Source of the DNA: Malania oleifera
Taxonomy: Eukaryota; Streptophyta; Magnoliopsida; Santalales; Ximeniaceae
Length of the DNA stretch: 64,000 nucleotides
Assembly: GCF_029873635.1 (NCBI RefSeq)
Contig: NC_080419.1
Span: 79,034,931 to 79,098,930 of the forward strand
Direction: 5' to 3'
In this document: piece after piece, positions 848-54,345 of the stretch
How the letters are laid out: each line of letters starts with the position of its first letter
How positions within the stretch are numbered: position 1 is the stretch's first letter
Position numbers and translations under genes: made by a program
The notes under the pieces: generated by a model
The model's input: the letters and a program-made list of their open reading frames with translations, nothing else
What the model was told of the DNA's origin: nothing
Database searches by the model: none

Positions 848-3116
848 TGAAATTAGGATAACTTCCCAAGAGGGGGGTGAATTGGGAATTTAAAAACTTT
901 CTTTATAATTCCTTTTAAGAACACTTAACTTCTTTTATTGTTTAACCAATTCGTTTACTTGTTTGTTTAATTTGTCAAACACACAATAATTTGGTTTCTT
1001 TTATACAATTAACAACACAAGCACTTAAACAACTAAATCACCAAACAACCTTTCAATCAACCACACTATCCAAACTAATCAAACACAATTTGAAAGCAAA
1101 CAACCAAACCAAAATTAAGATATACAGTAGTAAGAAATTAGGATGGTTGTTTGTTAATGTATGCCTTATAAATATGAATCAAGCCCTGTAGTTGAATGAT
1201 ATGCTTGTTTAAAATAAATTTGCTTCTCTTATATGATTTACAACCACACATCCACACTCTTCCCAAAATTCAGAATTCAAGTAAACTCTTAATTAATTTT
1301 CTTTAGGTGTTTTAACCAAGTAACGTACTCCCGTATGGTTTCCGCAAAGTATGGTTTAACCAACGTACTCCCTTTCGGTTTTGCAACCCAAATCAAAATT
1401 AAACTTTAAGTTTGTTTGATTTCCAAATATACGCAGTGTATATGATTTCAAATTTAAACCATCCACGCAATATAAATACGCTGAAAATAAAGAGTAAGGG
1501 AAAGAGAGAGTGAGACACAGGATTTTACAAGGTTTGACTTCAACACAGCCTATGTCCTCGCCTTTGGCAAAACCACCAAAGGATTCACTAAACCTGTTCC
1601 TTTACCGGGTGGAACAATACCTTTACACACTCCTTTAAAAGGCTAGAGCAGCTAATCTCTAAGCAATAATCCCTCGCCTAGCCAATGTTCCAGCAAACTT
1701 GGAATCGTCACAATCTACAAGAATATAATATAAATTTTGCGTACAAAAAATACTCTCAAAGTTTAGAGCAGGTTTTTAAATTGAGATGTAAATTGTACTT
1801 CAAAAAACCAAAGAAAAATAGAATATATGAAGCTCTAAAGTTTTTGGAAGTCACCAATGGTTCGTTTAAAATAGAAATGAAATTGCAACTTGGAACCAAG
1901 CTTTGATATTTTTAATCTACCGAAATTGTAGAATTTCTCTCCAGCAAAGATGTGAGCAAAGAAGAACTTTAGGAGAATTTCAGCACAAGATGAATTTCAA
2001 ATTTTGTCTGATTTCTCTCCTTTCTTGTGTTTTTTCTGTCATGTTTTTTTATTACCGAAAGAGGTATTTATAGGAAATTTAAAAAATCAACGTCCACATC
2101 AAATTAGGTAAACTTTGAAAAAAACATTAAATTGTTGACTAAATTTTGGAATTGAAAATTTTAAAATATCAACATCCACATCAAATTAGGTAAACTTTGA
2201 AAAAACATTAAATTGTTGACTAAATTTTGAAATTCAAAATTTTGAAAGATCAACATCCACATCAAATTAGGTAAACTTTGAAAAAACATTAAATTGTTGA
2301 CTAAATTTTGAAATTCAAAATTTTAAAAGATTAACATCCACATCAAATTAGGTAAACTTTGAGAAAACATTAAATTGTTGATTAAATTTTGAAATTCAAA
2401 ATTTTTGAAAGATCAACATCCACATCAAATTAGGTAAAATTTGAAAAAACATTAAAATTGTTGACCAAATTTCGAAATTCAAAATTTTAAAAGAAGCTTC
2501 CCTTTGAGATCTGAAATCTGCTCTGCGTGGCAGTCGTCTGTCATAGTTAAAATTTAAACCCAGAATACTGGCAGTCGTCTGCCAAAACATAGGCAGTCAT
2601 CTGTCATAGTTAAAATTTTAAACTCAAAACACTTTGATTAAACCCCTTAACTTGCCAGTCGCCTGTCCATAGACAAACAGTCACCTGTCAGGTGCATGGT
2701 TTATCAGAAACTCTCTTTTTATTTTGAAAACTTTCCTTCCTTTAAGACCTTTGTTATTTTGATTTCAAAAGCATGTTTTAAGCTCTTTAAAACAAAGTGT
2801 TTCTTAGTTTCTTTTGTTTTTATAGGAGCTTCACATATCTAAATGATATTTGGTTTTGAAGTACTTACAACAGTTCTTCTTATTATGATCTTCTTAAATC
2901 CTTCAGCCTCTTTCAGCCTTTTGAGGTTCACTTTTGACTTTGGGTTTGCTTGCCTTTAAACTTCTTCATTTGTTGTTCATTGCCTTCAATATTCTGAGGA
3001 GCTTTCACTAGATTTACATTAAGCTTCAACCTATCAACCTTGAGAGTTCTTTTACGTAAAACACATAACTTAGCATCATATGTTAAAACATCTTTCATTT
3101 TGTTGTCATTAAAACA
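848..3116 (-). repeat. 5' LTR of the left-edge Copia element
   Basis: About 2.27 kb. On the minus strand it starts TGTTTTAATGACAACAAAAT and ends CCTAATTTCA next to the PBS. A TATA box (TATAAATA on the minus strand, 2065-2072) marks the likely promoter. Upstream of it (higher coordinates) come five 81-bp tandem repeats, then a cluster of imperfect palindromes of the GGCAGTCGTCTGCC type (about 2528-2692). The R/U5 part has the GTTCCACCCGG-like stretch (minus) seen in several LTRs of this window. Confidence 0.85.
2088..2495. repeat. 81-bp tandem repeat, five copies, in LTR U3
   Basis: Five head-to-tail copies start at about 2088, 2170, 2251, 2332 and 2414; each begins (C/T)AACRTCCACATCAAATTAGG. 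Period 81-82 bp, with few differences between copies. It lies between the TATA box and the palindrome cluster, so it may alter LTR promoter strength. Confidence 0.9.
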
Positions 3117-3159
3117 GGATTTAAAAGCCCAGTTAGGTCAACACAAACATTGGTGGATG

Positions 3160-3920
3160 TCGGTGAGGCAACTTGAAGAACAAAGACCAAATTCAGCAAC
3201 CCTGACATGGAATTGTTTTAAGAAAATTTTCTTTGATCGATACATTCACTCTTCCACTAGAGATGCCCAGGCGGAAGAGTTTGTGAACTTGAATCAAAGG
3301 AAGAGGCCTATGCCCCTTGGATTTCAGGCAAGTACCAGTCAAGCACCTTGGAGAAGGCATAGGAGCAGTGGAGGCCAGAGATAGGGAATGGGAGATCTGG
3401 TTGAACAAGGTAATCCATCACTCCCTCCTTGTATAAGGTGTTATTAGAGACATTCGGGAGAATGTCAAGTTGGAAGGAATGTTTGTTATTGGTGTGGTTG
3501 ACCGGGACACTTGGCACTAGATTGTCGTGCGCAGTACAAGAAGGCGCATGCTCCTAGATAGTTTCAGGAAAATAATCAAGTATAAATTTTCACATTTTTC
3601 AAGTAAAGCTGTGGTGTTATTTGATTTAGGAGGTATTAATTCCATTATATTATGAATATATCAAACTATGAGGAGTAGAAACGCAGTTGCTAGATGCCAA
3701 GTTATCAGTAGTCACACCGACAGGGTCAATAGTGAGGTGTCAAAGGGTGTTTAAAGGCTACCAAGTAGATATTCAGGGGAGAGTATTATCAGCTGACCTG
3801 GTAGTGTTAGACATGCATGGATTTGATATAAGTTTGGGGATAGACTGGTTAGCTGCTAATTATGCCAGCATCGGCTGTCATTTGAAAGAGGTGATATTCA
3901 AACCTCCTGGAGAGTAGGAG
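3160..3920 (+). mobile_element. gag C-terminal part and protease of the first Gypsy element
   Basis: The gag part contains WNCFKKIFFDRYIHSS followed by EEFVNLNQRKRPM, the usual Gypsy gag core. A CCHC zinc knuckle (GHLALDCRAQYKK region) lies near 3490-3545. Protease homology follows at about 3615-3917, with the region around GFDISLGIDWLAANYA matching the DVILGMDWL block of chromovirus proteases. The active-site DSG-like segment sits near 3625. Fossil, broken. Confidence 0.8.
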
Positions 3921-4029
3921 TTTAAATTTGTGAGGTCGCGCATGCATTCCTCACCATGGTTAGTGTTAGCCATTCAAGTGAGGAGGCTACTTCTAGATGG
4001 ATGTTAGGGGTATATAGCCTGTGCAAAGG

Positions 4030-5101
4030 AAGTGCTAGAGAAAGAATTGAAACTTAGCCATATTCCAGTGGTAAAAGAATTTTCAGATGTCTTTCTAGAT
4101 GAGCTACCTGGATATCTTTCCGACCATGAGGTTGACTTTACCATTGATTTACTTCCAGGGATGACACCAATTTCTAAAGCTCCCTATAGAATGACTCCAA
4201 CAGAGTTGAGAGAGTTAAAAGATCAGTTGTAAGAATTGTTTGATAAAAGGTTTATTAGACCCAGTGAATCACCCTGGGGAGCATCAGTTCTATTTGTAAA
4301 GAAGAAAGATGGGACGATGAAGGTGTGTATAGACTACAGAGAAATAAATAAAGTAATTGTTAAGAACAAGTATCCTCTTCCCTGTATTGATGACTTGCTC
4401 AATTAGCTCCAGGGTACACAGGTTTATTCAAAGATTGATTTACACTCTGGGTACCATCAAGTGAAGGTAGAGACAGAGGATATCTCCAAGATAGCGTTCT
4501 GAACCCGGTATGATCACTATGAGTTTTTGGTCATGCCATTCGGACCGATGAATGCTTCTACTATATTTATGGACCAGATGAATAGAGTCTTCCATCAATA
4601 TTTGAACCAGCTTGTTGTTATTTTTATTGATGATATTCTGGTCTACTTAAAGAGTTTTGAGGAGCATGAAGATCATCTGAGGATGGCGCTATAGGTGTTG
4701 AGAGAAAAGAAGCTATATGATAAGTTTTAGAAATGTGAATTCTAGCTGAGGGAAGTTATGTTCCTTGGATATGTGACATCTGGGGATGAAATTTTTGTAG
4801 ATCCCAGCAAGATAGAGGTAATGGTGAATTGGCCAAGATTGTGGAATGTTCAGGAGATCAGAAGTTTCTTGGGACTGGAAGGATATTATCATCAGTTCGT
4901 AAAGGGATTTTTTAGGCTATCAGAACCTCTGACATGCCTAACCAGGAAGAATGCTAAGTTTGAATGGAATGATGATTGTGAGCAGAGCTTTTAGGAGTTG
5001 AAGCAGTGACTCGTCACCGCACTAGTTTTGACCATCCCATTAGGGGACTGAGATTTTGTGATCTACAATGACACATCTCTGAGAGGACTCAGGTGTGTAT
5101 T
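4030..5101 (+). mobile_element. reverse transcriptase and start of RNase H, first Gypsy element
   Basis: RT blocks in order: [79 protein letters not shown] and the catalytic block [11 protein letters not shown] (near 4615-4645), then FLGYVTSG and IRSFLGLEGYYHQFVKGF. RNase H begins near 4990 and is interrupted at 5101 by a solo LTR. The FIDD box is the Gypsy form of YxDD. Old and broken. Confidence 0.9.
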
Positions 5102-6674
5102 TGTTGGCTCGGGTGTGCGTCTAGAGGAGGGGGGGGGGTGAATGGACGTATTTTGTGGATATAAAACTTTTTCTACAATCACAAAAATAACTTGGAAAGA
5201 TGCAAGAGTATTATATCATAATTTATATTTAAGACAAATAATAACAAGCAAACAAAGTGAGAAAGGAAGGAGAAGAAAAGCTCAACAAGGCGATATTAAC
5301 ATGGTTCAGCACCATGCCTACGTCCATGCCTTGAGACCAGCTCAAGGATTCCCAAAATCCACTAAGCAATCCTCCTTCATCGGTGGAGAAGCCTTTACAA
5401 TCCAGCTGCTCACTAAGAGCTACAACAAGGTGCTCACCTAGAGTCACCTTACAAAGGCTCACAAAGAACCCTTCAACAAAATAAATCAAAACAATAAGAT
5501 ACAACTTCAATTCTCCTTTTTGAGCTAATATTACAAGTCAAAACCTCACACTACTCTCTTTGTAAATGGTATGTAAGACAAGAATAAAGAGCAGGAGAGC
5601 AAGGGAGTATGAGCAAGAATGAGAACCCTAGAAATGAATGCTCATTCAATGTGCTTAACCACCAAGTACTGAACTAGTTGGAAATGAATGCACAAGACTC
5701 ATATTAAAGGGAAAAGGGACGAGCAATGCGCTGGAGAGCCGTTGTACATTAATGGAGATAAGACAATTTGAAAACTGGCTGTTAATACGCATTTAATGCT
5801 GCCAGCAGCTCGATGTTCGTTGACGAATTCATGCCTTTGTCGACGATTCTTATGCATGCCTTCGTTGGTGAAACCTTGTGTTCGTCGATGATCCTTCTGT
5901 ACTAAATTCATATAGGTCTTGATTTCTTTTTGTTGACGAGTCCCATGTGTACATTGGTGAACCACCACTATGCCTTCATTGTCGAATTCCCTGTATTCGT
6001 CGATGAACCAACTTTGGTATTTTAGGTGGTCTTGGTATATTTTTGTCAACAATTCCCCTATGTACGCCAATGAAATGCCTTCATTCGTTCATCGACGAAT
6101 CTCTTGTATTCATTGACGAATCCCTTTACTTATATGAATGTGAACACATTCAAACTTGGTTTTCATTCAAGTAAAGGTTCCATCTTGTCCATAATTAATT
6201 TTTACCAATTTCAAGATGTCTTGGTTTAATAAAATACGTTTGAAAGCCATTTTGACATCTTATACAGTTTAAGTGACTCAATATGCATGTGTGAACTCGG
6301 AATTATGTTCTAACCTATTATGAACTATATGCATGTGTGATTTGCTCGTCTTTTGCAAGATACTCGTGAACATACCATATGCACAGGAGTTACAATATCA
6401 ATCTTATATGCACAACCAAACACATATATGTAATGTAGAAATCATAAGTGCTGCTTGAGTGGTTGAGTTCCGGATGTGTCGTATGTTGGACTTTGGTGAT
6501 GGTCATTTGCTCTTTGCTTGTTCGATACATTTTTGACCCTTATGCTTGCCTTAGAGTTTTCCTATATATCTGAAATGAGCTTGAGGAAGAATGTTAACGT
6601 ACTTTAAGAACTACTAATGGATTGTTGCCATCAAAACAAGCTAGAATGAGAACCCTTAGCCACTAGGGCTAACA
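5102..6674 (-). mobile_element. solo LTR (Copia/sirevirus-like) with perfect TSD, inside Gypsy RNase H
   Basis: A 1573-bp TG...CA segment exactly interrupts the Gypsy RNase H. It is flanked by an identical 5-bp target duplication, GTATT (5097-5101 and 6675-6679). Minus orientation: on that strand it starts TGTTAGCCCTAGTGGCTAAG and ends with the CCATTCACCCCCCCC block typical of this LTR group. No internal region or second LTR is present, so it is a solo LTR left by LTR-LTR recombination. It carries about a dozen TTCGTCGACGAA-like palindromes between about 5812 and 6118. Confidence 0.9.
5812..6118. repeat. array of TTCGTCGACGAA-like palindromes in solo LTR
   Basis: About twelve imperfect copies of a 12-14 bp palindrome recur every 20-45 bp, such as TCGTTGACGAATTC, GTCGACGATTC, GTTCGTCGATGATC, ATTCGTCGATGAACC and TCATCGACGAATC. 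The spacers often read CCCTGTGT or CCTATGT. Because of the period, one frame reads as repeated FVDE-like peptides; this is a by-product, not a protein. Confidence 0.85.
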
Positions 6675-8129
6675 GTATTGATACAACAAGGAAAAGGTGT
6701 GGCATACGCTTCTCGGCAACTCAAGGAATATGAAAAGAGCTATCCGATGCATGATCTAGAGTTGGCTACAGTGGTGTACGCCTTAAAGATTTGGAGGCAT
6801 TAACTGTATGGCGAGAAATGTGAGATCTTTCTAGATCGTAAAAGTTTGAAATATTTCTTCACACAGAAAGAGTTGAATATGAGGTAGAGGAGATGGTTGA
6901 AGTTAATTAAAGATTATGATAGTACCATAAGTTACGATCCAAGGAAAGCAAATGTGGTAGTTGATGCCTTGAATCAAAAATCAGGGAATGCCTCTATATC
7001 AACAAGGGTGATGCAGCATCAGATCAGAATGGATCTGGAAAGGCATGGATTAGAGTTGGTAAAGGGAGATCACGAGGCAACTATTGTTTGTCTGGTACTT
7101 TAGTCGACTTTGCTGGAGAAAATTAAGATTGTGTAGATGCATGATGCAAAATTGATAAAGATCAGAGATAGAGTACAAAGTGGATATGGGGTTGATTTTA
7201 ATATTTTTGATGATGGTGTTATGAGGTTTTGTACCAGACTATGCGTACCTGCAGATGTTGAAATTAAAAGAACCATCTTGGAAAAAGTGCACTGATCCCT
7301 TTATACGGTGTACCCTGGAAGTACTAAAACATACAGGGATCTTCGGGAGTTCTTTTGGTGGAGCAATATTAAGGAAGAGATAGCTGAGTACGTAAAGCAA
7401 TGTTTGACGTGCGAGTAGGTAAAGGCTGAGCACCAGAGAACGACGGGACAATTACAGCCACTCCATATTCCTGAGTGGAAGTAGGAACATATTTCTATGG
7501 ATTTTTTTATAGGGTTACAGCTGACATTGCATGGTCAGGATGCTATTTGGGTAGTCGTAGATCGGTTGACAAAGACTGCCCACTTTCTTCCCATCAGAGT
7601 TGGCTACTCCATGAGTAGGTTGGCAGAAATATATATACAGGAGATAGTGAGACTACATAGAGTGTCTGTGTCCATTGTCTTTGACCGAGACCCATGGTTC
7701 ACATCGTAGTTTTGGAAAAGTTTGCAAAGAGCCATGGGTACACAACTGACATTCAGTGCAGTCTTTCATCCTCAGACCGATGGATAGACGGAGAGGACGA
7801 TTCAGATAATGGAGGATATGTTGTGAGCCTGTGTATTAGTTTTGGTGGTAGGTGGTCCAGTACATGCCACTAGTCGAATTTTCTTATAATAACAGCTACC
7901 AGGTTAGCATTGAGATGACACCATATAAGGTGTTATATGGCTGGAGGTGTCGATCCCTATTATATTGGGATGAAACTGGTGAGAGTTGAAATTTGGGGCA
8001 GGAGATCATATATTTTAAAAATTGCACTGGTAAAAGGGGTGATGAGGTTCGACAGGAAGGGTAAGCTGAGCCCTAGGTATATTGGACCATTTGAGATTCT
8101 TAAAAGAGTGGGTTCAATTGCATACAAGT
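6675..8129 (+). mobile_element. RNase H remainder and integrase of the first Gypsy element
   Basis: After the solo LTR the Gypsy reading resumes with [20 protein letters not shown] (RNase H), then SYDPRKANVVVDAL. Integrase follows: the H2C2 region around YPGSTKTYRDLREFFWW and KQCLTCE, and the catalytic core with DFFIGLQLTLHGQDAIWVV, DRLTKTAHFLPIRVGYSM and FHPQTDG. Near 8060-8129 comes the C-terminal block IGPFEILKRVGSIAYKLAF, where homology stops abruptly. Fossil, broken throughout. Confidence 0.85.
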
Positions 8130-9405
8130 TAGCCTTTGGAAAATCGCCAAGTTCAGCCACCCGAACCTGTCCTCGGGGACCCGAACATGAAACATACACT
8201 TTTCTTCATGTGTCTGTTCGGGCGACCAAATCTAAGGTTCGGGTGACCGAATCTCTCGGGTTGCCAATTTTTTACCAAGTTAATTAAGGTTAAAACTTAA
8301 TTAAAACATTTCCAAAATTCCCAATAGGTCCCCAACGGTCATATTTTTTGTTAAAACTATATATATCCCTTCCAAATCCTCTCAAAGTATTTTGTTAATC
8401 AAAGTTCCCCCAACTAAATTTTATTGCAAAAACTATTTCTTGAGGCAAATCTTTACTCTCCAAAACTCTCTTGCTTTCATTCTTGAAAATTTATTTTATA
8501 AGAGAGCATTTTTGTTTGGGCATTTTGTTTATTCAAAAGCACTTACTCTCTCAAGCCTTTATTTTTATAAAACAATCTTTGAGAGTAAGATCAAAAGTTC
8601 TTCACATTGTTTTGCTTTGATAAATATTTTTGTGGAGGAACTTTTATTTGGGTTTAAATCTTTTCTGTGCATATCATATACATTATTTTTCAAAGATTGA
8701 AAATATTATTTGATAGCACCCTTTCTCTACTGAGCATTATTTCATATCTTTAGAGAGTGCATATTTTATGAGCTTAAACGTTGTTCTTTTCAGCTTGTAT
8801 TTAGAAGCATTTTTATATATGCAAAAATATTTTTCATGTATCGGTTGGGTTCAGCCCGAAATTGAACTGGGGAGTCTCTGCCCCGTAAATGAGATCGGTT
8901 CGGTTCAGCCTGAAAATTGAACTAGAGAGTCTCAACCTTGTAAGTGAGACCGGTTCGGTTCAGCTCGAAAATTGAACTGGGGTATTCCTTGCCCCGTAAG
9001 GAGAGGATGTAACGGCTTTTGCTTCACCCATTTAAGTGAGTAGGTTTAATGTAATCCTTGGCGGATATGCTCAAGGCGAGGAGGTAGGCTGGTTTGGCGG
9101 AACCTCAATAACAAATATCATGTGTCTCTCTCTCCCTATCTTTTTTAAATTTCCACACTTTAAATTTAGTTTGTGTATGCATGTTCATTCATGATTATAA
9201 CTATTTTGCATGCACACATATTTAATTTAAATAAGAGTTGCACCACTCGTGTATGTATATATTCATTGTTAAATTGTTTTTCATACACGTGTATATTTTG
9301 AATGGGATATGATTTATGGTAAATTGACAAAATGTTTAAATTTATCCAAAAAGTTTTTAAAACCCAATTCACCCCCATCTTTTGGGATCACACCAAAGTC
9401 AACAT
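8130..9405 (+). repeat. 5'-truncated sirevirus-type LTR
   Basis: This matches the 3' two thirds of the LTR at 18665-20548. Shared landmarks are the CGGGCGACC palindromes (8145-8270), the AATAGGTCCCCAACGGTC block, a TATA box (8356-8366), the TTGTAACGGC and CTCAAGGCGAGG segments, and the end block CAATTCACCCCCATCTTTTG GGATCACACC closing in CAACA (9405). The first several hundred bases are missing, and the left side abuts Gypsy integrase. No PBS follows on the right, so it is not a complete 5' LTR; it is a solo or 3' LTR remnant. Confidence 0.75.
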
Positions 9406-15430: not shown

Positions 15431-15995
15431 CATTTCCTCAAAACAAAACTAGCTTAGTTTATCCCCTTACCTGATTCTTAGAAAGCCCCTAATAAAACTG
15501 CCTCGCACCTGTAGGGTTCCTAACTCAACACCCTGAAAATGAAAACTCCCAGTATTAAAGTTAAGTATTTTCATACGTACAACATTTTCTATAACTACCA
15601 CTAAGTCAAATTTGGCTTAAAAGCCTTACCTCAACTTAGGGATGATTCCTTACGTTCCCAATTCAACACCCCTAGAAACAACATTGTTCAGAATTAAAGT
15701 TCAGTATTTCTAAGCGTATAACACTTTTCTCAACTGTCACAAATCCAAATATTGAGTAAAAAGCCTTACCCTGGATTTGGGATGGTTTCCACCTTGCTTT
15801 CACCAACGATCCGCTCCAGTAGATTTGGAGAGAACTTCCCCAAGAGTGTTGTGGTGACCTTGGATTGTCAATTCGGTGTAAATTTGGCCCGAAATTGATG
15901 AAAGAAAGAGGGAAAACCGAAGGGGAGAAAGAGAGGGAAAACTTAGCTTCTTTTGTAAGTTAAAAATCTGGATTTTTCTATTTATAGACGGGGGA

Positions 15996-16222
15996 TTTCG
16001 TCGACGAGACATGTCACCTCGTCGATGAGTCCTTCATTAAATTCGTCAATGAGACCCTATATTCGTCGACGAAATTCAGGCTGGCCCAGAACCTCTCTCG
16101 GTATTTTCTCGTAGACGAAGCCCTGTGTTCGTCGACGAATTTTCTGATGCACTCTTCGACGAGTCCTGGCCATTTTCTTGAAATTATGGTTATCCCCCAA
16201 AATGTGATGTCGTCGACGAAGT
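15996..16222. repeat. TTCGTCGACGAA palindrome array in Gypsy solo LTR
   Basis: Copies include TTTCGTCGACGAGACAT, CTCGTCGATGAGTCC, ATTCGTCGACGAAATTC, TTCTCGTAGACGAAGCC, GTTCGTCGACGAATTTT and TCGTCGACGAAGTC. The array ends about 10 bp upstream of the minus-strand TATA box. Confidence 0.85.
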
Positions 16223-18664: not shown

Positions 18665-20548
18665 TATTGGCTTTTTGAGTTTGATCTCTATTTTGATATT
18701 GACAAATACAAGTGTTTCTTATGTGTGTGTGTTTTATTGTGTACACATGTATTATTTAGGTCACACATAAGATCAAGAGAACATGGAAGCCAAGGTAGGT
18801 CTTAAAGCACAAATCTGGCGCATTCTATGGTGTCAAAGAGCAAAGGAGAAGAAGAAGACATGTTTCATTTGTATTGCATTTATTTATATTATTATTTGGT
18901 CTGTAATAATGCATGCATCTGCATGATATGGTTATTTGCTCAGACTAGACCATAGATTAATTATAGGGACAAAACTTATGAGGCCAATTAGAGCATAACT
19001 TGAATTTTGAAAAGGCTTCAGGTGACTGAACTTAGAAATTTAGAATGGTTCGGGCGACAGAATGTGTAAAGAGTCAAAAAGTTGATTGAGCCCCGGTCGA
19101 CCGAACCTAATTTGAACTGATTGTCCGCGGTTGATCGAATGTTCAATGTAACTTTTTCCACTATCCTTGGGTGCCTGAATACTTAGTTCAAAAATACCCC
19201 GGGCGACCAAATTGTCATGTTTGGCAAACCGAACTATGAACCGAGCGACCGAACCTTGAGCGTTTAAAAAATCGCCTTGGTCCAACTACCCAAACCTTCA
19301 TCCGGGCACCCGAAATTAGAAAGTAAACTTTTCTAACTGACCGACCTAAAGGACCGGGCAACCGAAACTCTCGGGTTGCCAAAAATTAACCGCTGTAATT
19401 GGGATTAAATTTTAATTAAACTTTTTTAAAATTCTCAATAGGTCCCCAACAATCATATTTTTCGTAAAAATTATAAATACCTTCATTTGGTTTAATTAGT
19501 AACTTTGATCAAACCAAATTTTCTCTTTAATCCATTGTTAATCAAAGTTCTCTCAAACGTTTTTTATTGTTTAAATTATTCTTTTGGGGAAAAATATTTT
19601 ATACAAATCTCTCCAACTCTCTTTCATGCTCTTATTTCAAAATCATTTTTTTAAGAGAGTATTTCATTTAGGGGCATTTTATTTGCACATACTCTCACTA
19701 GGCACTTAATCTTTGAAAAATATTTTTGAGTGTATTGCTTAGGTTTTCTTCCTGTTATTTCCTTGATAAATATTTTTGAGAGAAAATTATTTATATCACA
19801 AATATTTTCTTGAACTTAAATTCCTAGATTCTCCAAATATTCTTTATTTGTAAAAATATTTATAGAAGAAAAATAATACTCATTTTTCATGTATATTTTA
19901 TTTGTGTAAAATTATTTGATAACACTCTTACTCTACTGAGCATATTTCATATCATATTAGAGTGCATGTATTTAAAGTTTAAATGTTGTACATCTCTGCT
20001 TTTATTTAGAAGTATTTTCATATGTACAAAAATGTTTTTAATGTACCGGTTGAGTGCAGCCCGAAAATTGTACTGGGAGTTTCAATCTTATAAGTGAGAC
20101 AAGTTGGACTCATCCTTGTAATTGAGCTGAGGTTTACCTCACCCCGTAAGGAGAGGTTGTAACAACTTCTACTCCACCCATTTTAGTGAGCAGATTTAGT
20201 GTAATCCTTAGGGGGTATGCCCAAGGTGAGGGCGTAGGCTAGTTTGGCCGAACCTCGATAACAAATATTGAGTGTCTTTCTCTCTCCCTATCTCATTTAA
20301 TTTATGCTCTTTAAATTCAGCATGTGTATGCATGTTCATTCACGACTTTAACTAATTGCATGCACACTTTTATTTGAATGAGATATGCTGCACGTGTATG
20401 TTCATACTTATAGCTTAATTATTTTTCATACACATTATTATATTGAATGAGATGTGATATGTGGTTAATTGGCATAAATGTTTAATTTAGCCAAAATATT
20501 TTTAAAACCCAATTCAATGCCCCTCTTGGGATCACACCAATTCCAACA
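18665..20548 (+). repeat. 3' LTR of a sirevirus-like element
   Basis: About 1.88 kb. Starts TATTGGCTTTTTGAGTTTGA after the last polypurine tract and ends CACACCAATTCCAACA. TATA box (TATAAATA) at 19472-19479. A cluster of GGGCGACCGAA-type palindromes lies at 19045-19382. Shares its 3' two thirds with the truncated LTR at 8130-9405. No 5' LTR of this element is present; the sequence beyond 20548 is Gypsy gag, its insertion target or the product of a later deletion. Confidence 0.85.
19045..19382. repeat. GGGCGACCGAAC-type palindrome array in sirevirus LTR
   Basis: Imperfect copies such as GTTCGGGCGACAGAA, GGTCGACCGAACC, GGGCGACCAAATTG, GAGCGACCGAACC, CCGGGCACCCGAAA and CCGGGCAACCGAAAC recur every 25-45 bp. 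They end about 90 bp upstream of the TATA box. Confidence 0.85.
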
Positions 20549-23565: not shown

Positions 23566-25537
23566 TGTTGACCTTATAGGTCGCACCCGGTTTTGATAAT
23601 GACAAATATTGATATTTGATGTTTGTTAAGTGTTTGTGCAGGTTCAACTCAAACTTCCTTGATGGCACTTGAAGAAACAAGAAGACCTTGAAGCGTTGTA
23701 ATTTACATTGTAAAATATTAGTAATTTATGTAATAAGGTCTGTAATAGTAATCTAGGATATGGTTTGTATGCCTATCACTTGCACATCAGGCATATAAGA
23801 TATAGTGTGAGCTCAACTTGACCATAGTGACCCCAGGCTCCAACTCTCACACACACATTGCATAAAATATGATTGTGAAATAATTGTGCTAAAATTGACA
23901 ATATCTATGCAAGTTATGAAGGGTTGGGCGACCAAACCTTTGGAGTATAAAACTCCTCAGGCGCCCGAACTTAGACAAAGTCAAATTGTTGACCTGCCCT
24001 TGGGTGACTGAACCATAAATGCATGTATCTTCTTCGGGCGCCCGAACACTTTGAAAGGGACTATTCACCAACTTGGGCAACCAAGGATTACAATTCAAAA
24101 TCAACCTCGGGCGACCGAACATAAGAGTTCGGTTAACCAAACTCAGGATCAGCCACCCGAACCTACGAAAAAATGTTTCTGACTTTTGTTCGGACTGCTG
24201 AGCCAAGATATGGGCGACCAAATCAGCTTAGAACACTTTTTTAACTGTGTCTATTTGGGGCAACTGAACCTCGGTTCAGCCACCCGAACTCCAGCAGGTT
24301 AAAATAAAATAACCAAGGTAAAACAGGGTTATTTCGGGCTAATTGAATTTTAATCTTTTGAGACTTTTTAATAATGCCCATTATGTCCCGAACGGTAATA
24401 ATTTTTTACCTAGCTATAAATATAAGTCCATTTGCTCAATTGAAAATAGGATTAAGAAAAAGCGATTAGCAAAAACTCTCTCTAACTTGAAAATCCTTTC
24501 TTTGTCCAAAAAACTCTCAAACTTGCCTCCTTCGATAAAATATGAGATTGTGAGAGCTCTTCATATGTTATTGTGATTGTCATATCGTGCTAAATTCTCC
24601 CATTTGTATGGTTGTTATGTATATTTCTCTTGGGGAGTTTTAGCCTAGGTTTAACCCACGAATTTCTTCATCGTAAATCTAGCGTGGGATTAAACCAAGG
24701 AAGCTTAGGATATTTTCATTTCATTGCAAGTGTCCAATAGCTTTGCTTTTGGTGCGCAAAGATTTTTTAAACAAGCAAGCAACCTTTTCAAACTAGCTTT
24801 GTGCTTATTTCAATGAAGAAAACTACTTAGAAACTAGTTTGATTATCTGCATAGTATACTTGGAATATTGATGTGTTGTTGAAATATTTTGTTTAGATTC
24901 CAAGTCATTGCTTGTGTTGATTATTCTTGAGCATCATACTGATTGTATTGTGTTGAATACTCTTGAGCTACATATTGACTATACGATGTTGAGTATTGAT
25001 AAGAACAAATCTTGCATCACTGAGCTTACACTATATCCTTGCTTTTGATGTGTATGTGATTGAGCGTATTATTTGGGTACAAATCTGCTTTACGTGAAAG
25101 CACTATTTCATTGTACCATTTGATTGTAAATCTGAGTGATTCTAGGCGTGATCTGAGGGGGCGGTAATCCAGCCCGATAAGGATTGGTGTAAAGGTTGAG
25201 GTCAACCCTATGCTAATTGACCTGGTTTGTATAGGTGCCGCTCCACCCGGTTAAATGAGCAAGTGATAGTGGTAATCCTTGTGCTTGTTAGCTAAGGCGG
25301 GGACGTAGGCAATTGGCCGAATCTCAATAACATTTCTGCATGTCACTTTTACTTTATTGTTCTTCTGGTGCATATGCTGTTAATTAAATTGCTTCATTTA
25401 ATTTCTGATATATTTATATTACTCGCACTAGATTGACCAAAGGGTTGTGAACATACTGCTGTTAGGAGGAATACCTAGGGGTTAAATTTTAAAAATACCA
25501 ATTCACCCCTCCTCTTGGGATCACGGTAAAACTAACA
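23566..25537 (+). mobile_element. solo LTR, sirevirus-like, with perfect TSD AGTTC
   Basis: A 1972-bp TG...CA segment with identical 5-bp target duplication AGTTC (23561-23565 and 25538-25542). Starts TGTTGACCTTATAGGTCGCA and ends GGTAAAACTAACA after the CACCCCTCCTCTTGGGATCA block. TATA box TATAAATATA at 24415-24424. GGGCGACCGAAC-type palindromes at 23918-24295. No internal region: a solo LTR. Confidence 0.9.
23918..24295. repeat. GGGCGACCGAAC-type palindrome array in solo LTR
   Basis: Copies include GGGCGACCAAACC, AGGCGCCCGAACTT, GGGTGACTGAACC, CGGGCGCCCGAACAC, CGGGCGACCGAACAT, GTTCGGTTAACCAAACTC and CAGCCACCCGAACC. The array lies about 120 bp upstream of the TATA box. Confidence 0.85.
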
Positions 25538-28958: not shown

Positions 28959-29001
<43 letters not shown>

Positions 29002-29020
29002 ATTTCTTTCTCTCCCTCCC

Positions 29021-29383: not shown

Positions 29384-29430
<47 letters not shown>

Positions 29431-29598
29431 GTAGGCTTTTCTGGTGGTATGGGGGGCTGCATGTGGGTCTACGGAGGGCACCCTGACCATTGTCATACCT
29501 ACCGAAAAGACTTTCCTCTTGAACCCTGTCACCTTCCAGGGGCCATACAAATTCAACACTTTTCTTTTGCAGGTAGAATTCAAAATCTCGCCAGAAAA

Positions 29599-29638
<40 letters not shown>

Positions 29639-30490: not shown

Positions 30491-30532
<42 letters not shown>

Positions 30533-32120: not shown

Positions 32121-32729
32121 TGTTGCATGCATGCATGCTCCACTAATTATGAGTGTAATGAAAATACTAGTTGTTTGCTTACTAATTACGTACACATTGA
32201 TTTAACTTTCAGCTCCGCTAACAAAAATTACTAGATTTTTTTTTTCCACATCTATACTATAACATGGGTTAAAGTAATAAAAACCCCCAATTTTTATTAC
32301 ACTAGCAAATCACTCGCCTAATGTTGACTCCATGTAAAAAGACCTAAGTTTTTATATGTTGCAATTAACTCCACTAACTTCTATTTCATAAAAAAAATTA
32401 GAAAATACATGAAGCTAATTTATAATTATATCTAGCCACTATTAATTTTTCACAAAAAAGACTATAAAATAATTATAATTAGATTTTATGTTGTTCTAAA
32501 ATTCTAATTTTTATCAACTTTAAATGAAATTGTTCTTTTCTCGTTACATTATAGATGAGTAAAAATCATTATTAATTTTTGATGGGCTTTGAGTAAAAAA
32601 CATAAAGTTTTTTATGTTTCTTTCAAAATGAGTAAATTAAGGCACAAGAGAGAATAAGAGAGAATAAAGATTTTGGACACTTGGAAAATCAATAACAATC
32701 ACTTCTTTAATGTTCTTTGGGCTTAAAAG

Positions 32730-32994
32730 GGGAGGAGTTCTCTAGTATTTTTCCCGAACTAGGAAGGTGATCTCTTCGCCCTTTTTTGTATTCCTCTTTG
32801 GAAGTTTCAAGCTACTTGCTTGGCACTTCCCTACAAATGAATTTACCTTTTGAAAAAAAAATCCCCTCCACATCATGCGCGTGCTCATCAGTTCTGTACC
32901 CACCTCCTCTCCTACCTAGCAACTAGGTACTTACCCATGGACAACCTATTGCTTCCTCTCTCTCTCTCTCTCTTCGTTTCTTTCTCTCCCTCCT
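32730..32994 (+). promoter_or_regulatory. LINE-derived upstream region and CT-rich leader of polygalacturonase copy 3
   Basis: Between the duplication joint and the start codon lie about 130 bp of LINE 3' UTR, an A run (32852-32862) and about 130 bp of leader with a short CT repeat (32957-32975). Two upstream ATGs (about 32875 and 32937) lie out of frame with the main start. No clear TATA box was seen within the unit, so promoter elements may lie in the 3' flank of copy 2, or the leader may be transcribed from there. Confidence 0.5.
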
Positions 32995-33540
32995 ATGGAG
33001 AACCGGTTGGTCATCATCCTGCTAGTCCTTAGTTTTTATTATATGGCTTCATCCTGCACCTGCTGGGGAATAGTATCAGACTACTACTCACCAAGAAGAA
33101 TATTGCTGCAGGAAGCTGTGCCGGCAAACATTAATGGAGTTTTTAATGTTGTTGATTTCGGTGCAACTGGGAATGGCTTCTTTGATGATTCCCAAGTAAA
33201 CCTCTTTCTTCCTTTTTCATTTTTTCCCCATTCTTGTTTGGCTTTTCTATTTTTAACATATTCATTTTTATTAATTAATTGGTTTCCCATTATGTAAACC
33301 TTTTTATTTATAGGTAATCTCTATATAAGATTATTCTACTTCGTTCTTATTAATTCTCTCTCTCTCTCTCTCTGATGTAGGCTTTTCTGGAGGCATGGGG
33401 AGCTGCATGCGGGTCTACGGAGGGCACCCCAACCGTTGTCATACCTACCGGAAAGACTTTCCTCTTGAACCCTATCACCTTCCATGGGCCATGCAAATCC
33501 AACACTCTTCTTGTACAGGTAGAAATCAAAATCTCCCCAT

Positions 33541-33577
<37 letters not shown>

Positions 33578-35884
33578 TTATTACTGTCTAATTTTTTATT
33601 AAATAGAGCAATGTCAAGTTTAGAGTTTAGTTTTGAATTTGTTTTAGTTTAATTTGAAATATGGAATACAAGCAATATAGTGACTTTCATACTATTAAAT
33701 TCATGTATATTCTTGCCTACACTGAGAGAAATTATTAGATATATCAGATCTAATAGGATTTTGTAATGTGCATTATATCTTAGCGAAATTAGATAATTTT
33801 TTTACGTGTAACCATATTAGATACGGTGTATACTCTTGGTGCACCTAATACACCCAGTGCACGAAATATTTTCTCTCAGAAAGTTTTAAATTTTCATTTA
33901 TTAAAAGTATGTCCTTGTATAATTGACTCCCTTCCACCTCCGTATATATTGTTAGTTATACTCAGGAATATACGCGCCTTATTATTTTCTCTCTTTTTCC
34001 TCATCCTTTTTTCTCTCTTCTTGTTTGATCATCTTGTATGCATGTTGATGAAGCAGGTTTTTGGGAATATTGTTGCTCCCACTTCAGTAAATACTTGGGA
34101 AGGCCTGGACAAGGGTAGCTGGATTTTATTCACGAGCGTAAATGGTCTCATCATTGATGGAGGTGGCACAGGACAAGTAAATGGCCAAGGTGCAGCTTGG
34201 TGGGATAATTGCAATGTATATATATATATATATATATAAAATAAAATCTCTCTCTCTCTCTCTCTCTCACATATGTTCACCATGTGCTCCGTTTCTTTTA
34301 TATCTTTAATATATATATGTATGTGCATATACGTTTTATGTAGGTTTGTGTATGCATGTGTGTAAGTTAATTATCAACTTTGCTTTTAAAATTTGTTTTT
34401 TTGTTCTTGCGATTAATTATGGATCTAATCAAATACCATCATTAATTTTTTTCAGAGCCAAAACTGTGAACGACCAGTGGTACGTAAGATTCAATCTTAT
34501 ATGGAATTAGAATCCTTATTTCACATGCATGATTAATAGGTTCATTATTTGAATGTATATATTTATGCAGTCACTGCGCATACATATGTGTAATTCATTC
34601 AAGGTAAGAGGAATGAAGCTTGTTGACAGTGCAAAAGGGCATATTGGTGTGTCAAATTGTAATGATGGTGACCTTAGCAGCGTTGTCATTGTTGCTCCCG
34701 ATGATAGTCCTAACACTGACGGCATAGACATTTCCTCTTCAATTCGCATTCGTATTAATGACAGCACCTTTAGCACTGGTAATTAATTTTTTTTTAATTT
34801 GATTAATAGATTAAAATTTGTATCCTTAATTACGCTTAAGTTCTCTATTTAATAAATTAATTAATATATGTTTATGCACGTAGGTGATGATTGTATTGCC
34901 ATCAATGGAGGGTGTTCTTTCATCAACATTACTAATGTTCTTTGTGGACCAGGGCATGGCATAAGGTTGATTTAATTGTCACCCATTAATACATTTTTAC
35001 CGCATTATTTAATTTTTTGTAATCTCATTTTTTCACATATATATTTATATATGCATTTATAGTGTGGGAAGCTTGGGTGAAAATGGATCTTATGATACAG
35101 TAGAAGAGGTGAATGTGCAAAATTGCTTCTTTAATGCAACTCAAAATGGTGTAAGAATCAAGACATGGCAGGTAACTATATCCCAAAAAAAAAAAAAAAA
35201 AAAAAAAATAAAAATTTAATATTTTCCAAGATATATTCATATTTAATTACATTTATTCCTATTATTTTTTTTTTCTATAGGGTGGATCGGGATATGCACG
35301 AAAAATCAATTTTCAGAATATCACACTCAACATTGTCGAAAATCCTATTGTTATCAACCAATATTATTGCCCTATGAAGCCCTGCAATAATGAGGTAAAA
35401 TTTTTTAAAAAAAAAACGTTTGATTAGCGTGTACATATTTTTTAATGCTTGATTAGTGTGAGCACTTATATATTTTGAGTGTCCAATTCTAGGTCTTATC
35501 CATGGTAGACACAAAATTAGACCCCATATGTTTGCATGTCCATTTATGGGGTCTGTTCTTTTGTCTACGAAGGAGAGGACTTGGGACGCAAAGCTGAGAA
35601 GTTTATTAGTTTACTTAATATGTGGAAGCATGAATATATAAATGCAGAGCTCAACTGTTGAAGTGAGCGATGTGACGTTCTCCATGGTGAAAGGATCCTC
35701 AACCAGTGACAACGTCATTAGCTTGAGTTGTAGTGAGACAGCAGGATGCAAGAACATCGTACTTGATCAAATCAACATTACATCTTCCATTCCATCGAAA
35801 ATGGTTTCAGCCACATGTTCCAATGCTCACGGAAGATCTATCAATGTTTTTCCTACTATTCCTTGTTTATTAGAAGAAACCTAG
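32995..35884 (+). CDS. polygalacturonase (GH28), copy 3, intact, 9 exons
   Basis: Predicted exons: 32995-33195, 33381-33518, 34057-34215, 34456-34479, 34571-34778, 34884-34965, 35063-35171, 35281-35394 and 35648-35884. Phases agree, and every intron is GT-AG. The product is 423 aa, normal for plant polygalacturonases, which hydrolyse alpha-1,4-galacturonan in wall pectin. An N-terminal hydrophobic stretch ([18 protein letters not shown]) looks like a signal peptide, so the enzyme should be secreted to the wall. All four GH28 motifs are present: [30 protein letters not shown] and RIKTW, supplying the catalytic Asp residues and conserved His and Arg/Lys. Cysteines near the C-terminus match the family. 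The start was chosen at MENRL because it leads into the signal peptide; an upstream ATG (32937) is out of frame. Exon 4 is a 24-bp microexon. Expression and substrate preference are not shown by the sequence. Confidence 0.92.
33540..33574. repeat. (GA)n microsatellite in intron 2 of polygalacturonase copy 3
   Basis: About 17 GA units; a matching GA run is in the same intron of copy 2 (about 29603-29635). CT runs precede exon 2 in both copies. These runs create spurious ERERER/SLSLSL reading frames. Confidence 0.9.
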
Positions 35885-36495
35885 TGTAGCATGCATGCAT
35901 GGTCCACTAATTATGAGTGTCATGGAAATGCTATTTGTTAGCTTACTAATTATGTACACATTGTTTTAACTTTCAGTTTCACTAACAAAAATTACTAGAT
36001 TTTGTTTTCCACATCTATATTATAACATGGATTAAAGTAATAAAAGCCCCTAATTTTTATTACACTAGCAAATCACTCCGTTAATGTTGACTCCATGTAA
36101 AAAAGGCCTAAGTTTTTATATGTTGCAATTAACTTTTCATAGAAAAATCAGAAAATACATTAAGTTAATTTATAATTTATATCTAGCTACTGTTAATTTT
36201 TCACAAAAAAAAAAAAAGACTATACAATAATTATAATTAGATTTTATGTTGTTCTAAAATTCTATTTTTTATCAACTTTAAATGAAATAGTTCTTTTCTC
36301 ATAATGTTACATTATAGATGAGTAAAATTCATTATTAATTTTTGATGGGCTTTGAGTAAAAAACATAAAGTTTTTTATGTTTCCTTCAAAATGAGTAAAT
36401 TAAGGCACAAAAGAAAATAAGAGAAAATAAAGGTTTTGGACACTTAGAAAATCAATAACAATTACTTCTTTAATATTCTTTGGGCTTAAAAAGGG

Positions 36496-46523: not shown

Positions 46524-46599
46524 CGAAAAGGAGAGAGAGGGGAGTGAGTTAGCCTAATGGGGAAGTTAAAATCCGGATTTTTTGTATTTATAGAACTGA

Positions 46600-46885
46600 A
46601 TTCGTTGACGAGCCACTTCATTCGTCGATGAATCCTTTAATAATTTCGTCGACGAAATTCAGTCCTCGTCGATGAAATTCAGTTGGTTCAAAACCTCTCT
46701 TGGTATTTCTTCGTCGATGAAATTCAGTCTTCGTCGACGAATTCTCTTAAACCTTTGTCAACAAATCCCCTTTATTCATCAACGAATTCTCTAAAACCCT
46801 TGTCAACGAATCCCGTGTATTCGTCAATGAAGCCCTGATGTTTCCCCTCGATTACTCCTTCCCAAAGTGCAATGTCGTTGACGAA
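46600..46885. repeat. TTCGTCGACGAA palindrome array in Gypsy solo LTR
   Basis: About twelve copies such as AATTCGTTGACGAGCC, CATTCGTCGATGAATCC, TTTCGTCGACGAAATTC, CTTCGTCGACGAATTC, TTGTCAACGAATCCC and GTCGTTGACGAAGTCG, beginning about 10 bp upstream of the minus-strand TATA box. Confidence 0.88.
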
Positions 46886-47828: not shown

Positions 47829-48238
47829 TGTTGACTCTATAAATCATATCTCATTTTGATAATGACAAATCATTTTGTATCTTACAAGTCCTCTAAGCTA
47901 GTTTAGCTTGAGGTAGGGTCGTGGGCACATTTGCAAGTTGAACCTCAATAACACATTTGGTGTCACTCTTGTTGTACTTGCTTTACTTTTTGTGCTTGCT
48001 TGCTTATATGTATTTGCTGGAATCATCACACTGATATTTTGATATATTTATTTGTGATTGCTTGTGAAATACTAGAGTTGTTTTATTTGCCTAGCCTATC
48101 TAAACGTACAAGTATCAGTTGAATTGGATCTGCTTAGTAAAGACCTTAAGTTGTGGTATACTACTACTGGTTAATAGACCCTAAAATTGTTAAATCTCCA
48201 ATTCATCCCCCTCTTGGGCTTACACCAATTCCAACAAT
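47829..48238 (+). repeat. 5' LTR of the gag-only sirevirus-like element
   Basis: 410 bp, ending CACCAATTCCAACA directly before the PBS. Short compared with the 1.6-2.3 kb LTRs nearby; it lacks the palindrome array. Confidence 0.85.
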
Positions 48239-48292
48239 TGGTATCAGAGGCAAGTTGTGGCATATCCTAATGAGTAGCTACATAAAGGTCAA

Positions 48293-49770: not shown

Positions 49771-49845
49771 ATGCCAATACAGAAATTCAAGTGATATATC
49801 CAATCTGAATCTAATGCATATACATCATAATGATTCGTTATAATA

Positions 49846-49887
<42 letters not shown>

Positions 49888-49961
49888 TATTATAACGAAT
49901 CATTATGATGTATATGCATTAGATTCAGATTGGATATATATATATATATATATATTGGCAT
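49771..49961. repeat. long perfect inverted repeat around an AT run
   Basis: Left arm ends at about 49853 and right arm begins at about 49880. The arms are perfectly complementary over about 57 bp (right arm ATTAATATTATAACGAATCA... to ...ATTCAGATTGGATATAT, 49883-49939). Beyond them ATGCCAATA (49771-49779) pairs with TATTGGCAT (49953-49961), across an unpaired stretch of 13-14 bp. The loop is an AT run that can also pair with itself. It lies in the 3' non-coding interior of the sirevirus-like element. Confidence 0.93.

Positions 49962-50924: not shown

Positions 50925-50973
<49 letters not shown>
50899..50973. repeat. (CATA)n and (AT)n compound microsatellite
   Basis: CATA units with one interruption, followed by an AT run. 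Confidence 0.9.
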
Positions 50974-52727: not shown

Positions 52728-53121
52728 ATGATTCATATCCCGTTTAGATAATGACAAATCACTTTATATCTTACATGTCCTCTAAGCTATTTTTTCTTGA
52801 GATGGGGACGTAGGCATAGTTGTCGAACCTCGATAACACATCTAGTGTCACTCTTGTTTTACTTGCTTTACTTTTTGTGCTTGTTTTCTTATTTGTATCT
52901 GCTGGAATCATTGCACTGACATTTTGATAAATTTATTTGTGATTGCTTATGAAATACTGGAACTGCTTTATCTGCCTACCCTATCTAAACGTACAAGTAT
53001 CAATTGAATTGGAACTGCTTAATAAAGACCTTAAGTTATGATATACTGCTACTGGTTAATAGACCCTAAAATTTTTAAATCTCCAATTCACCTCCCTCTT
53101 GGGATTATACCAATTTCAACA
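52728..53121 (+). repeat. 3' LTR of the gag-only sirevirus-like element
   Basis: 394 bp, aligns end to end with 47829-48238; ends ATACCAATTTCAACA. Confidence 0.85.
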
Positions 53122-53126
53122 GTGGT

Positions 53127-53802
53127 CTTACTTATTAAACATATTTCATATAAATTACACAAAAATTATATCTAACAAAAAACTTCGTTATTCTTTTTTC
53201 AAATGTCACTTTGTTAGATAATTGAAGATATGAAATAAATATATTATATATTCATAATTTTAAGAATGATCTAATCCTTATATATTAATACTTACTTCAA
53301 GGCATTGACTTAGGCCACCCTTGTCTATTTTTTTTCTATGCTCAAGTGGTAAAAGTGCAACATGCTGCTAATAGGAGACAACCGAACCAATAAAATGATT
53401 CATTTCATAGGAATTTGGCTAAGATCAACACTAATTGTCAATTATCAAACTCAACCTACTCCTTCACTTGAGCTTAGGACTAAATATGAGTGAAGATAAT
53501 TAAGACATAAATGGAGTTTAAAAAAAAATGCCATTAAAAATGCTTATCATTTTATTTTATGGAATTTTTTGTAGTAGTACTAACGTTTAATAGCTGCTAC
53601 AAAATTTATCCCACATTTTAGCTACATTTGTTAAAATGATATAATGGTGTTGAAATATTCCATATTATAATTAAACTAGCATATTTTAGGAAAATGAAAA
53701 TCGCTATGTTTTGAAAGTATGGACTTAGAACTTTAGAATTGGATTTGTCTAAATTTATATAAAATATAATATAAAAATTATTGTTTGTGGCTTTTATACT
53801 TC
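53127..53802. other. unassigned AT-rich spacer
   Basis: No gene found. TTTTTTGTAGTAGTACTAACG (near 53564-53584) resembles a transposon terminus but has no partner that I can identify. Confidence 0.35.
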
Positions 53803-54345
53803 TGTTTTGATAAGCGAAGAAGGAATGAGGAAAAATATGAAGGGGGCAGCACAGCAAGAATCGTCGATGAAGGGCCTATGCTCGTCGACGAGGGAACAAC
53901 AGAGGTTCGTCAACGAATAATTATCGAGAGTAGGAAATTTCAGACTTTTAACATCGTCGACGAGAGCCCTGCATTCATCGACGAAGGTTTTTCTTAGTCT
54001 CATCGACAAACCCCTGTGTTCATTGACAAGAGGCGCCTGGGCTGCGACAGTTTTCTGAAATTTTGAATTTAAATGTTGGGTGGTTAGACAAACAGGGGGA
54101 AACCTCCAAGGAAACTCTATATATGTCATCTGAGCATATTTTGAGTGAGTAATCATTAGAGAAGTGTATTGTGTACATTTTGATTTTCTTAGTGAAATTT
54201 GTGTGTCATTGCTTTTGTGAATGTAGCCTTTTCCGAACCACGTAAATCTTTGTGTTGATCTTGTTTTAGTTGTGTGTTATTTATATTCATTTGTTGTTTA
54301 TTCTGCTATGCATTTTCATTATACGATCCATATCACAACAACAAC
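53803..54345 (+). repeat. LTR-like segment with TTCGTCGACGAA palindromes (ends uncertain)
   Basis: Palindromes at 53858-54033 (GAATCGTCGATGAAGG, CTCGTCGACGAGG, TTCGTCAACGAAT, ATCGTCGACGAGAG, TTCATCGACGAAGG) precede a TATA box (CTATATATG, 54116-54124). Then comes a leader with TTTTCCGAACCACGTAAATC, typical of the U5 of several plant Copia LTRs. No target duplication was found, so boundaries are tentative; probably a truncated or solo LTR. Confidence 0.6.

Follow-up and report, generated by a model that had tools for sequence, protein, structure and literature searches.

Palindromic arrays ahead of the TATA boxes of long terminal repeats (LTRs) are known, chiefly from Sireviruses. In the description by Bousios et al. 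(2010; PMC2829016), many CpG-rich palindromic repeated-motif (RM) boxes, at least eight per element, are clustered in the upper LTR upstream of TATA, and extra boxes lie in the linker ahead of the envelope-like gene. The boxes are presented there as Sirevirus-specific and absent from classic Copia elements, with a CGG-CCG core in all but one element; Table 3 of that paper gives CGGTCGACCG for Vitis and ACAATCGATTGT (Tnd-1), the latter without this core. Palindromic repeat arrays in the cis-regions of various transposable element families are described in a second paper (PMC10760457), among them the maize Copia palindrome CACCGGACNNNGTCCGGTG, which forms a cluster in the cis-regulatory region of the LTR and is also present in Helitrons. 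In the present study, a 64-kb stretch of a 1.494-Gb plant genome (G000:C3:79034931-79098930, referred to as the window) was analysed for arrays of three palindromes, of which one, type A (TTCGTCGACGAA), is shared by LTRs of Copia and Gypsy retrotransposons.

As with the RM boxes, the arrays described here are clusters of CpG-rich palindromes, mostly upstream of TATA, and an array found between the LTRs of one element (L044; loci retrieved from the genome have L numbers) is perhaps comparable with the linker boxes. The type B palindrome of the window (TTCGGGCGACCGAA) has the CGG-CCG core and is close to the box given for Vitis. In contrast, the type A core, YTCGTCGACGAR (268 sites in 37 arrays), does not have it. 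A further difference from the published RM boxes is that type A occurs in Gypsy and in both Sirevirus-like and other Copia elements, its steps being near 20 and 25 bp and its CCGAGAG element fixed. Type A arrays have 4-11 sites, mostly 5′ of TATA, a count per array where that of the RM boxes is per element. The maize palindrome is similar in that one palindrome is found in two kinds of element, Copia and Helitron, whereas the available text stresses secondary structure and small RNAs and states no sharing with Gypsy. As far as the literature searched extends, the box without a CGG-CCG core, the fixed composite grammar, and the presence in Gypsy and other Copia elements of the same genome are new. 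LTR promoters composed of repeated host-factor sites are reportedly also present in ONSEN/COPIA78, with its heat-response elements, and in Tnt1 and Tto1, with their tandem repeats in U3 (the unique 3′ region); these are said to differ in having other motifs, few sites, and a distribution limited to single families or one superfamily. No description of the type A motif or of its sharing by Copia and Gypsy was found among the papers searched, mostly non-subscription ones judged by title and the start of the abstract, and the word 'palindrom' is absent from PMC11656987; the string TCGTCGACGA itself occurs in the text of 33 papers.

The palindromes are far more frequent than in the null models, which were 10 Markov-1 shuffles and the reversed string for the window and the reversed string for the genome. 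There are 27 type A sites in the window with up to two mismatches, against 0-2 in the shuffles and one in the reversed string, and 25 of these are inside, or at the edges of, the four intervals first named for this type. Exact copies of TTCGTCGACGAA number 37,861 genome-wide (67 in the reversed string). Likewise, type B has 17 sites in the window at up to three mismatches (shuffles 0-2; reversed string none), and its form TTCGGKCGMCCGAA has 7,295 matches in the genome against three in the control; type C (GGCAGTCGTCTGCC) has six at the same threshold (shuffles 0-1; reversed string none). Once low-complexity sequences are set aside, TCGTCGACGA is the commonest 10-bp palindrome in 264 kb (60 observed, 0.02 expected), although these 264 kb comprise the window plus 20 fetched 10-kb stretches (two stretches of 100 kb) from a region of C1 picked for its known copies of the motif, and this density is biased, unlike the genome count. 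Eight of the 38 arrays come from loci fetched through the motif itself, and members of arrays were selected by likeness to TTCGTCGACGAA; the first member counted in L027 sits just outside the LTR. Simple scaling from these non-randomly chosen stretches gives approximately 39,000 arrays genome-wide. Chance or base composition as the source of the motifs is ruled out by the window shuffles and genome counts, together with the counts of site pairs and of CCGAGAG given below.

Type A sites follow one another at regular steps. The 29 arrays with at least four sites (up to three mismatches) contain 177 steps. Steps of 19-21 or 24-25 bp, often alternating, account for 130 of them and steps of 42-50 bp, mostly at a missing site or at the centre of the array, for 29; the remaining 18 are longer. 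Pairs of exact sites with 4-33 bases between them occur 4,260 times in the genome and not at all in the control, and among the pairs listed the spacers are widely divergent in sequence while the length of the step is constant. Over the 268 sites, positions 2, 5, 8, and 11 of the palindrome are 98 % fixed and its three CpGs vary almost solely by C to T and G to A; the sites having been chosen by similarity, it is the contrast between positions that is meaningful, not the level. Such CpG decay is as expected for methylated sites, suggesting that type A sites are methylated in old copies. The observed/expected ratio of CpG is 1.72 in arrays and 0.55 in spacers, for sites chosen for their likeness to a CpG-rich word.

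In addition to the palindromes, the larger central step in most arrays holds an asymmetric element, CCGAGAG, 6 bp after one palindrome and on the promoter-facing strand. When sought with up to one mismatch at 5-7 bp past a site, it was found in 26 of the 38 arrays, in every case at 6 bp, and when the spacers were shuffled 20 times it was present in 0-3 arrays; five further matches are 1, 15, 16, 20, and 25 bp from a site. The 26 arrays include the Copia arrays of L039 and of the window at 53860, the Sirevirus-like L018, and the Gypsy-linked L012, L027, and L028. Across the genome, CCGAGAG follows a site within 20 bases 5,395 times, against three in the control, and 97 of the 100 matches listed have a gap of 6 where 0-20 was allowed, the others having gaps of 3, 5, and 5.

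A second word, CAGGG/CCCTG, recurs in the short spacers of the 53790-type Copia (three of five), the Sirevirus-like LTRs (eight of 13), and the proven Gypsy elements (four of 13), as well as in two of the three spacers of the Sirevirus-like internal array and 13 of the 75 in other arrays. Although the word was chosen by eye, every group is above the shuffle mean, and all but the Sirevirus-like internal array are above the shuffle maximum. CCGAGAG was likewise first spotted by eye and then counted, the checks being genome counts for CCGAGAG and shuffles for both words. ACCGAGA may resemble a listed core of the dehydration-responsive element (DRE) type, and TGACGTG an ACGT core.

The arrays are positioned relative to the TATA box. 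When the 26 arrays are oriented by CCGAGAG alone, TATA[AT]A is present within 60 bp on the sense side in 17 and on the other side in one; within 140 bp, the figures are 21 and eight. Genome-wide, and unsorted by element, TCGTCGACGAR is followed by CTATAAATA within 30 bases 8,945 times, with none in the control. The gaps among 100 matches listed are 6-10 (40 matches), 17-19 (26), and 27-30 (34), with none of 0-5, 11-16, or 20-26; these classes are spaced by about one helical turn, and most of the 27-30 class stems from the last-but-one site of an array. In Gypsy-type LTRs the TATA box is close to the array, and in both Copia lineages it is approximately 90-110 bp off, being 90-108 bp past the last listed site in the 53790-type LTR.

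The preliminary description had placed palindrome clusters 5′ of the TATA box in eight LTRs. The clusters are real; their placement fails or shifts at some of the LTRs. The assignment of 53858-54033 to Copia holds and a TATA box is present, although it lies 108 bp past the last listed site. At 5812-6118 the element is again Copia, but it is a minus-strand solo LTR, for which a plus-strand TATA box would be misplaced; in its sense direction there is just a TTTAATAT-like box, approximately 110 bp off. The claim was not upheld for the type C sites at 2528-2692, as TATA[AT]A is absent from the 308 bp on their 3′ side.

Assignment of the arrays to lineages is based on genes linked to them in other copies. 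On C1, the array is in both LTRs of a pair (2282175-2284187 and 2289469-2291488) that are about 92 % alike and 7.3 kb apart, and between them is homology to Gypsy reverse transcriptase (RT), RNase H, and integrase on the matching strand. Of the pol pieces used as queries for this homology, the RT of L012, where a Gypsy pol is found between two array stretches, is RVT_1 (1.8e-27), and the integrase of L018 has a Chromo domain (3e-06); the pol of L027 itself contains stops. With an RVT_1-type RT and a Gypsy integrase between array LTRs, this carrier is assigned to Gypsy (Metaviridae). The window arrays at 15996-16222 and 46600-46885 take the label Gypsy-type from the array LTR of L012, to which their own LTRs can be aligned (E values of 1e-39 and 4e-33) and which is linked to Gypsy pol.

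For the window LTR at 53790-54340, 40 out of 2,930 candidates were scored, with the window copy among them, and in 39 of the 40 the match to the 556-base query spans bases 5-549 or more. The copy at C4:40461251-40466445 has two LTRs 4.6 kb apart and a length near 5.2 kb. Its 5′ LTR has seven array sites (up to three mismatches). After this LTR come a primer site of the tRNA-Met type and a copia-type gag (Retrotran_gag_2, 2.2e-19), and RVT_2 (6.4e-44) is in the piece before the 3′ LTR; the array was read in the 5′ LTR, the 3′ LTR being matched by position only. With this RT and gag between its LTRs, the carrier is assigned to Copia (Pseudoviridae). The judgement that the family is not a Sirevirus draws on its RT, its length, and a window LTR that does not end in polyC, rather than on a tree.

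The LTR at 5102-6674 represents a second Copia family, for which 27 of 43 listed matches span bases 2-1560 of the 1567-base query, array included. It has the polyC-rich integrase signal that Sireviruses carry about 20 bp from the LTR end (TTCACCCCCCCCCC at 5142, minus strand), and polyC is also present in L043 and L047. In L047, the polyC end, primer site, and copia-type gag (Retrotran_gag_2, 5.2e-15) are in direct order, and the junction, CA-AGTGG-TATCAAAGC, differs from the published CA-ATTGG-TATCAGAGC by an allowed T to G and one change in the primer-binding site (PBS). In L043, an RVT_2 piece (6e-20) is found between two LTR copies, where a junction of the LTR/PBS type was not seen. The polyC end and gag suggest that this family is Sirevirus-like, a label that comes from motifs and not from a tree and does not claim full membership. 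The LTR of L018, 76-80 % alike to 5106-6672, belongs to the same family. Compared over 70 residues, the two Copia families have RTs with 44 % identity.

That all array LTRs belong to one superfamily is ruled out by the linked pol and gag genes (the Gypsy pair and the two Copia families). The preliminary description had held that the same 12-mer is on the promoter side of both Copia- and Gypsy-type LTRs, and had named a single superfamily as an outcome that would contradict it; its claim stands after the tracing of pol in other copies.

Other loci add detail on the elements that carry arrays. In L044 (G000:C8:67709700-67711980), eight type A sites at 62-232, with steps of 21, 25, 21, 25, 21, 25, and 21 bp (one site with four mismatches), are between the LTRs of a Sirevirus-like element and ahead of a 226-residue open reading frame (ORF), which has a weak, sub-cut-off match to PF20167. 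This is possibly a second promoter, or else a nested piece of LTR. When the internal part of the Sirevirus-like family was sought elsewhere, L046 had a Gypsy pol between two distant LTR copies and nothing was recognised in L045. In L001, a type A array is immediately adjoined by an array of another type of palindrome (TTGGTCGACCAA / TTCGGTCGACCGAA), at 1094-1305.

The type A arrays are probably one composite U3 enhancer, bound by host factors and present in Gypsy, in Copia judged non-Sirevirus, and in Sirevirus-like Copia of the same genome, through exchange rather than convergence. A symmetric dimer of a host protein would bind each palindrome and another factor would bind CCGAGAG; acting together from one fixed side of the helix, they would switch on the LTR promoter, 21 bp being two helical turns. 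The module would have moved between lineages by recombination or template switching and then been kept by selection. Sharing is favoured because the 20/25-bp steps, the CCGAGAG at 6 bp on the promoter-facing strand, and the CAGGG-like spacer are common to the lineages. The preliminary description had offered both convergence and the sharing of U3 modules; the evidence, which stops short of full descent, leans to the sharing of a composite module read by host factors. The further proposal, that a single composite enhancer with a fixed protein-binding grammar has moved as a unit between Ty1/Copia and Ty3/Gypsy elements of one plant lineage, wiring tens of thousands of LTRs to one host regulator, could equally well be right or wrong.

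A number of observations count against this explanation. Copia and Gypsy LTRs align only as pieces of 40-115 bp with 71-83 % identity, nearly all within the array (one 47-bp piece of L039, which matches L015, is the exception), and because these alignments are short, transfer is what we infer rather than read directly. Beyond CCGAGAG itself, the similarity of the central gap between Copia and Gypsy is weak (p<0.05 in six of 24 and five of 24 comparisons). CCGAGAG with up to one mismatch at an offset of 6 is lacking in 12 of the 38 arrays, and the Sirevirus-like array of the window has CCAAGAC (two mismatches) 6 bp after a degenerate site. TATA geometry is unequal between the lineages; nine of the 26 oriented arrays have no sense-side TATA[AT]A within 60 bp (four have it at 66-121 bp, five have none within 140 bp), and the listed genome matches are the first places on C1, from related families, and therefore not independent, the TATA gap classes representing few separate events. 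The LTR/primer junction of the 53790 family, CA-AATTGG-TATCAGAGC, resembles that of Sireviruses, which qualifies the placing of this family outside them. In addition, 10 further Copia RTs were picked out of 150 listed RVT_2 matches, six of the 10 apparently being of one family, and none has an array in the 3 kb of its 3′ flank; the module is therefore not general among Copia elements. Clustering of arrays by their flanks was uninformative, as 35 of the 38 chain together, the pair of L039 and window 53860 and one other standing apart.

Several of these observations would be expected had each lineage independently evolved the palindromes and their spacing for one abundant host dimeric factor. 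Fixed steps between widely divergent listed spacers, short alignments nearly confined to the array, TATA distances that vary by lineage, and weak similarity in the central gap are all consistent with such convergence, which shares the enhancer part of the preferred explanation, and the likelihoods of the two overlap. However, Copia and Gypsy both have the asymmetric element, at 6 bp and on the same strand, and three lineages have a CAGGG-like word (albeit one chosen by eye), which is more than a preference for one palindrome would produce; convergence is considered unlikely, and exchange the more likely of the two. A different function, in which adjacent palindromes form hairpins in the transcript for packaging or for small-RNA cutting, is improbable. 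All seven array pieces folded are more stable than the shuffle mean (z of -2.5 to -5.4), with none of 200 shuffles folding as well in five pieces and one of 200 in the other two, and palindrome clusters of maize Sireviruses attract small RNAs according to PMC10760457. Nevertheless, pairing partners vary from fold to fold, as is to be expected of any palindromes, covariation of neighbouring sites is absent at the loop-proximal ends (p 0.39) and weak at the outer ends (p 0.02), and hairpins explain neither the distance to TATA nor the strand of CCGAGAG. Attraction of small RNAs may be a cost borne by the elements.

It is very improbable that the arrays are neutral tandem duplications hitch-hiking with a few very successful LTR families. 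They are tandem-like, and the listed places in the genome come from a limited set of related families, but sites and steps persist while spacers diverge, and the same grammar is present in three lineages and in L044, where it is between LTRs and before an ORF. The difference in CpG between arrays and spacers is also contrary to neutral duplication, subject to the biased choice of sites. Finally, nesting is heavy in this DNA, the 5102-6674 solo LTR being itself within a Gypsy gene, and Copia arrays might be pieces of Gypsy LTRs nested in Copia LTRs with nothing shared. This is hardly credible, since the array is inside the query region covered by all 40 scored copies of the 53790 family, in the 5′ LTR at C4:40461251 it precedes the primer site of that same element, and the 27 long matches to the 1567-base LTR are near end to end with the array included.

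The features of the window are given in Table 1.

Table 1. Palindrome arrays and associated features of the window (sites in type A arrays are matches to YTCGTCGACGAR).
Feature	Position	Strand	Basis
Solo LTR, Sirevirus-like Copia family, inside Gypsy pol gene	5102..6674	-	Flanks; Gypsy RT pieces on both sides
Target-site duplication GTATT (5 bp) of the 5102-6674 solo LTR	5097-5101 and 6675-6679		
Type A array, 9 sites with <=3 mismatches, steps 20, 25, 20, 48, 46, 21, 92, 21	5816..6120	-	
Type A array, 8 sites, Gypsy-type LTR	15997..16220	-	LTR aligns with L012 array LTR
Central element CCGAGAG, 6 bp past palindrome	16095..16101	-	Read from sequence
TATAAATA, begins 11 bp past last palindrome	15979..15986	-	
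Type A array, 11 sites, Gypsy-type LTR	46601..46885	-	LTR alignment with L012
Central element variant CCAAGAG, 6 bp past palindrome	46697..46703	-	Read from sequence
TATAAATA, begins 9 bp past last palindrome	46585..46592	-	
LTR of Copia family judged non-Sirevirus, start approximate	53790..54340	+	Copies with linked PBS, gag, RVT_2
Type A array, 6 sites, steps 21, 25, 47, 21, 25	53860..54010	+	
Central element variant TCGAGAG, 6 bp past palindrome	53924..53930	+	Read from sequence
TATA box TATATATG	54118..54125	+	
Type B array (TTCGGGCGACCGAA and relatives), 4 sites with <=3 mismatches; TATATATA at 8358	8152..8251	+	
Type B array, 10 sites with <=4 mismatches; TATAAATA at 19472	19017..19366	+	
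Type B array, 10 sites with <=4 mismatches; TATAAATA at 24415	23923..24288	+	
Type C sites (GGCAGTCGTCTGCC), 4 with <=3 mismatches	2529..2667	+	

All three type B arrays are upstream of TATA boxes, as the preliminary description had it, although two of them, at 8152 and 23923, are followed 1.2-1.6 kb further 3′ by LTR ends with polyC of the Sirevirus kind (at 9368 and 25502). The arrays at 19017 and 23923 have near-equal steps (32/33, 43, 34, 72/73, 22, 20, and 61). It is probable from the CGG-CCG core that type B arrays are ordinary Sirevirus RM boxes. The GTTCGGGCGACCGAAC type matches known Sirevirus motifs and is no evidence for sharing across superfamilies. The array at 8145 comes directly after a Gypsy integrase, where two elements have apparently been broken together.

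Apart from the type C sites in 2528-2692, there are two lone matches elsewhere in the window (up to three mismatches), and no extra site was found in 2480-2760 even at up to four mismatches. Immediately ahead of these sites are tandem repeats of approximately 82 bp (2075-2494). PolyC LTR ends followed by ATTGG-TATCAGAG primer sites, in Sirevirus fashion, are present at 834-881 (minus strand) and 48202-48250 (plus strand), with no type A array within 1 kb. Repeats at 54804-55001 and 55990-56180, 85 % alike and approximately 1.2 kb apart, have what by eye is a copia-gag-like start after the first and are perhaps a small non-autonomous Copia element. A large tandem duplication, about 88 % alike, covers 28438-36495; the ORF pieces in it we take, by eye, to be polygalacturonase-like. 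Exons on the minus strand at 59139-61230 presumably belong to a nitrate/peptide transporter (NPF/PTR) gene, which they resemble by eye, and 191 bp at 49771-49961 match their own reverse complement at 92 %.

The promoters of plant retrotransposons are commonly regarded as evolving separately in each family. That three lineages have one grammar points to a single host regulator; much of the LTR population of this genome may depend on it, and the many copies of the array could have rewired nearby genes. Directly testable are the identity of the factor, the exchange of LTR enhancers between superfamilies, and why CpG-rich palindromes that invite methylation and small RNAs persist. If the proposed exchange is true, regulatory modules would have passed between retroelement superfamilies that split very long ago.

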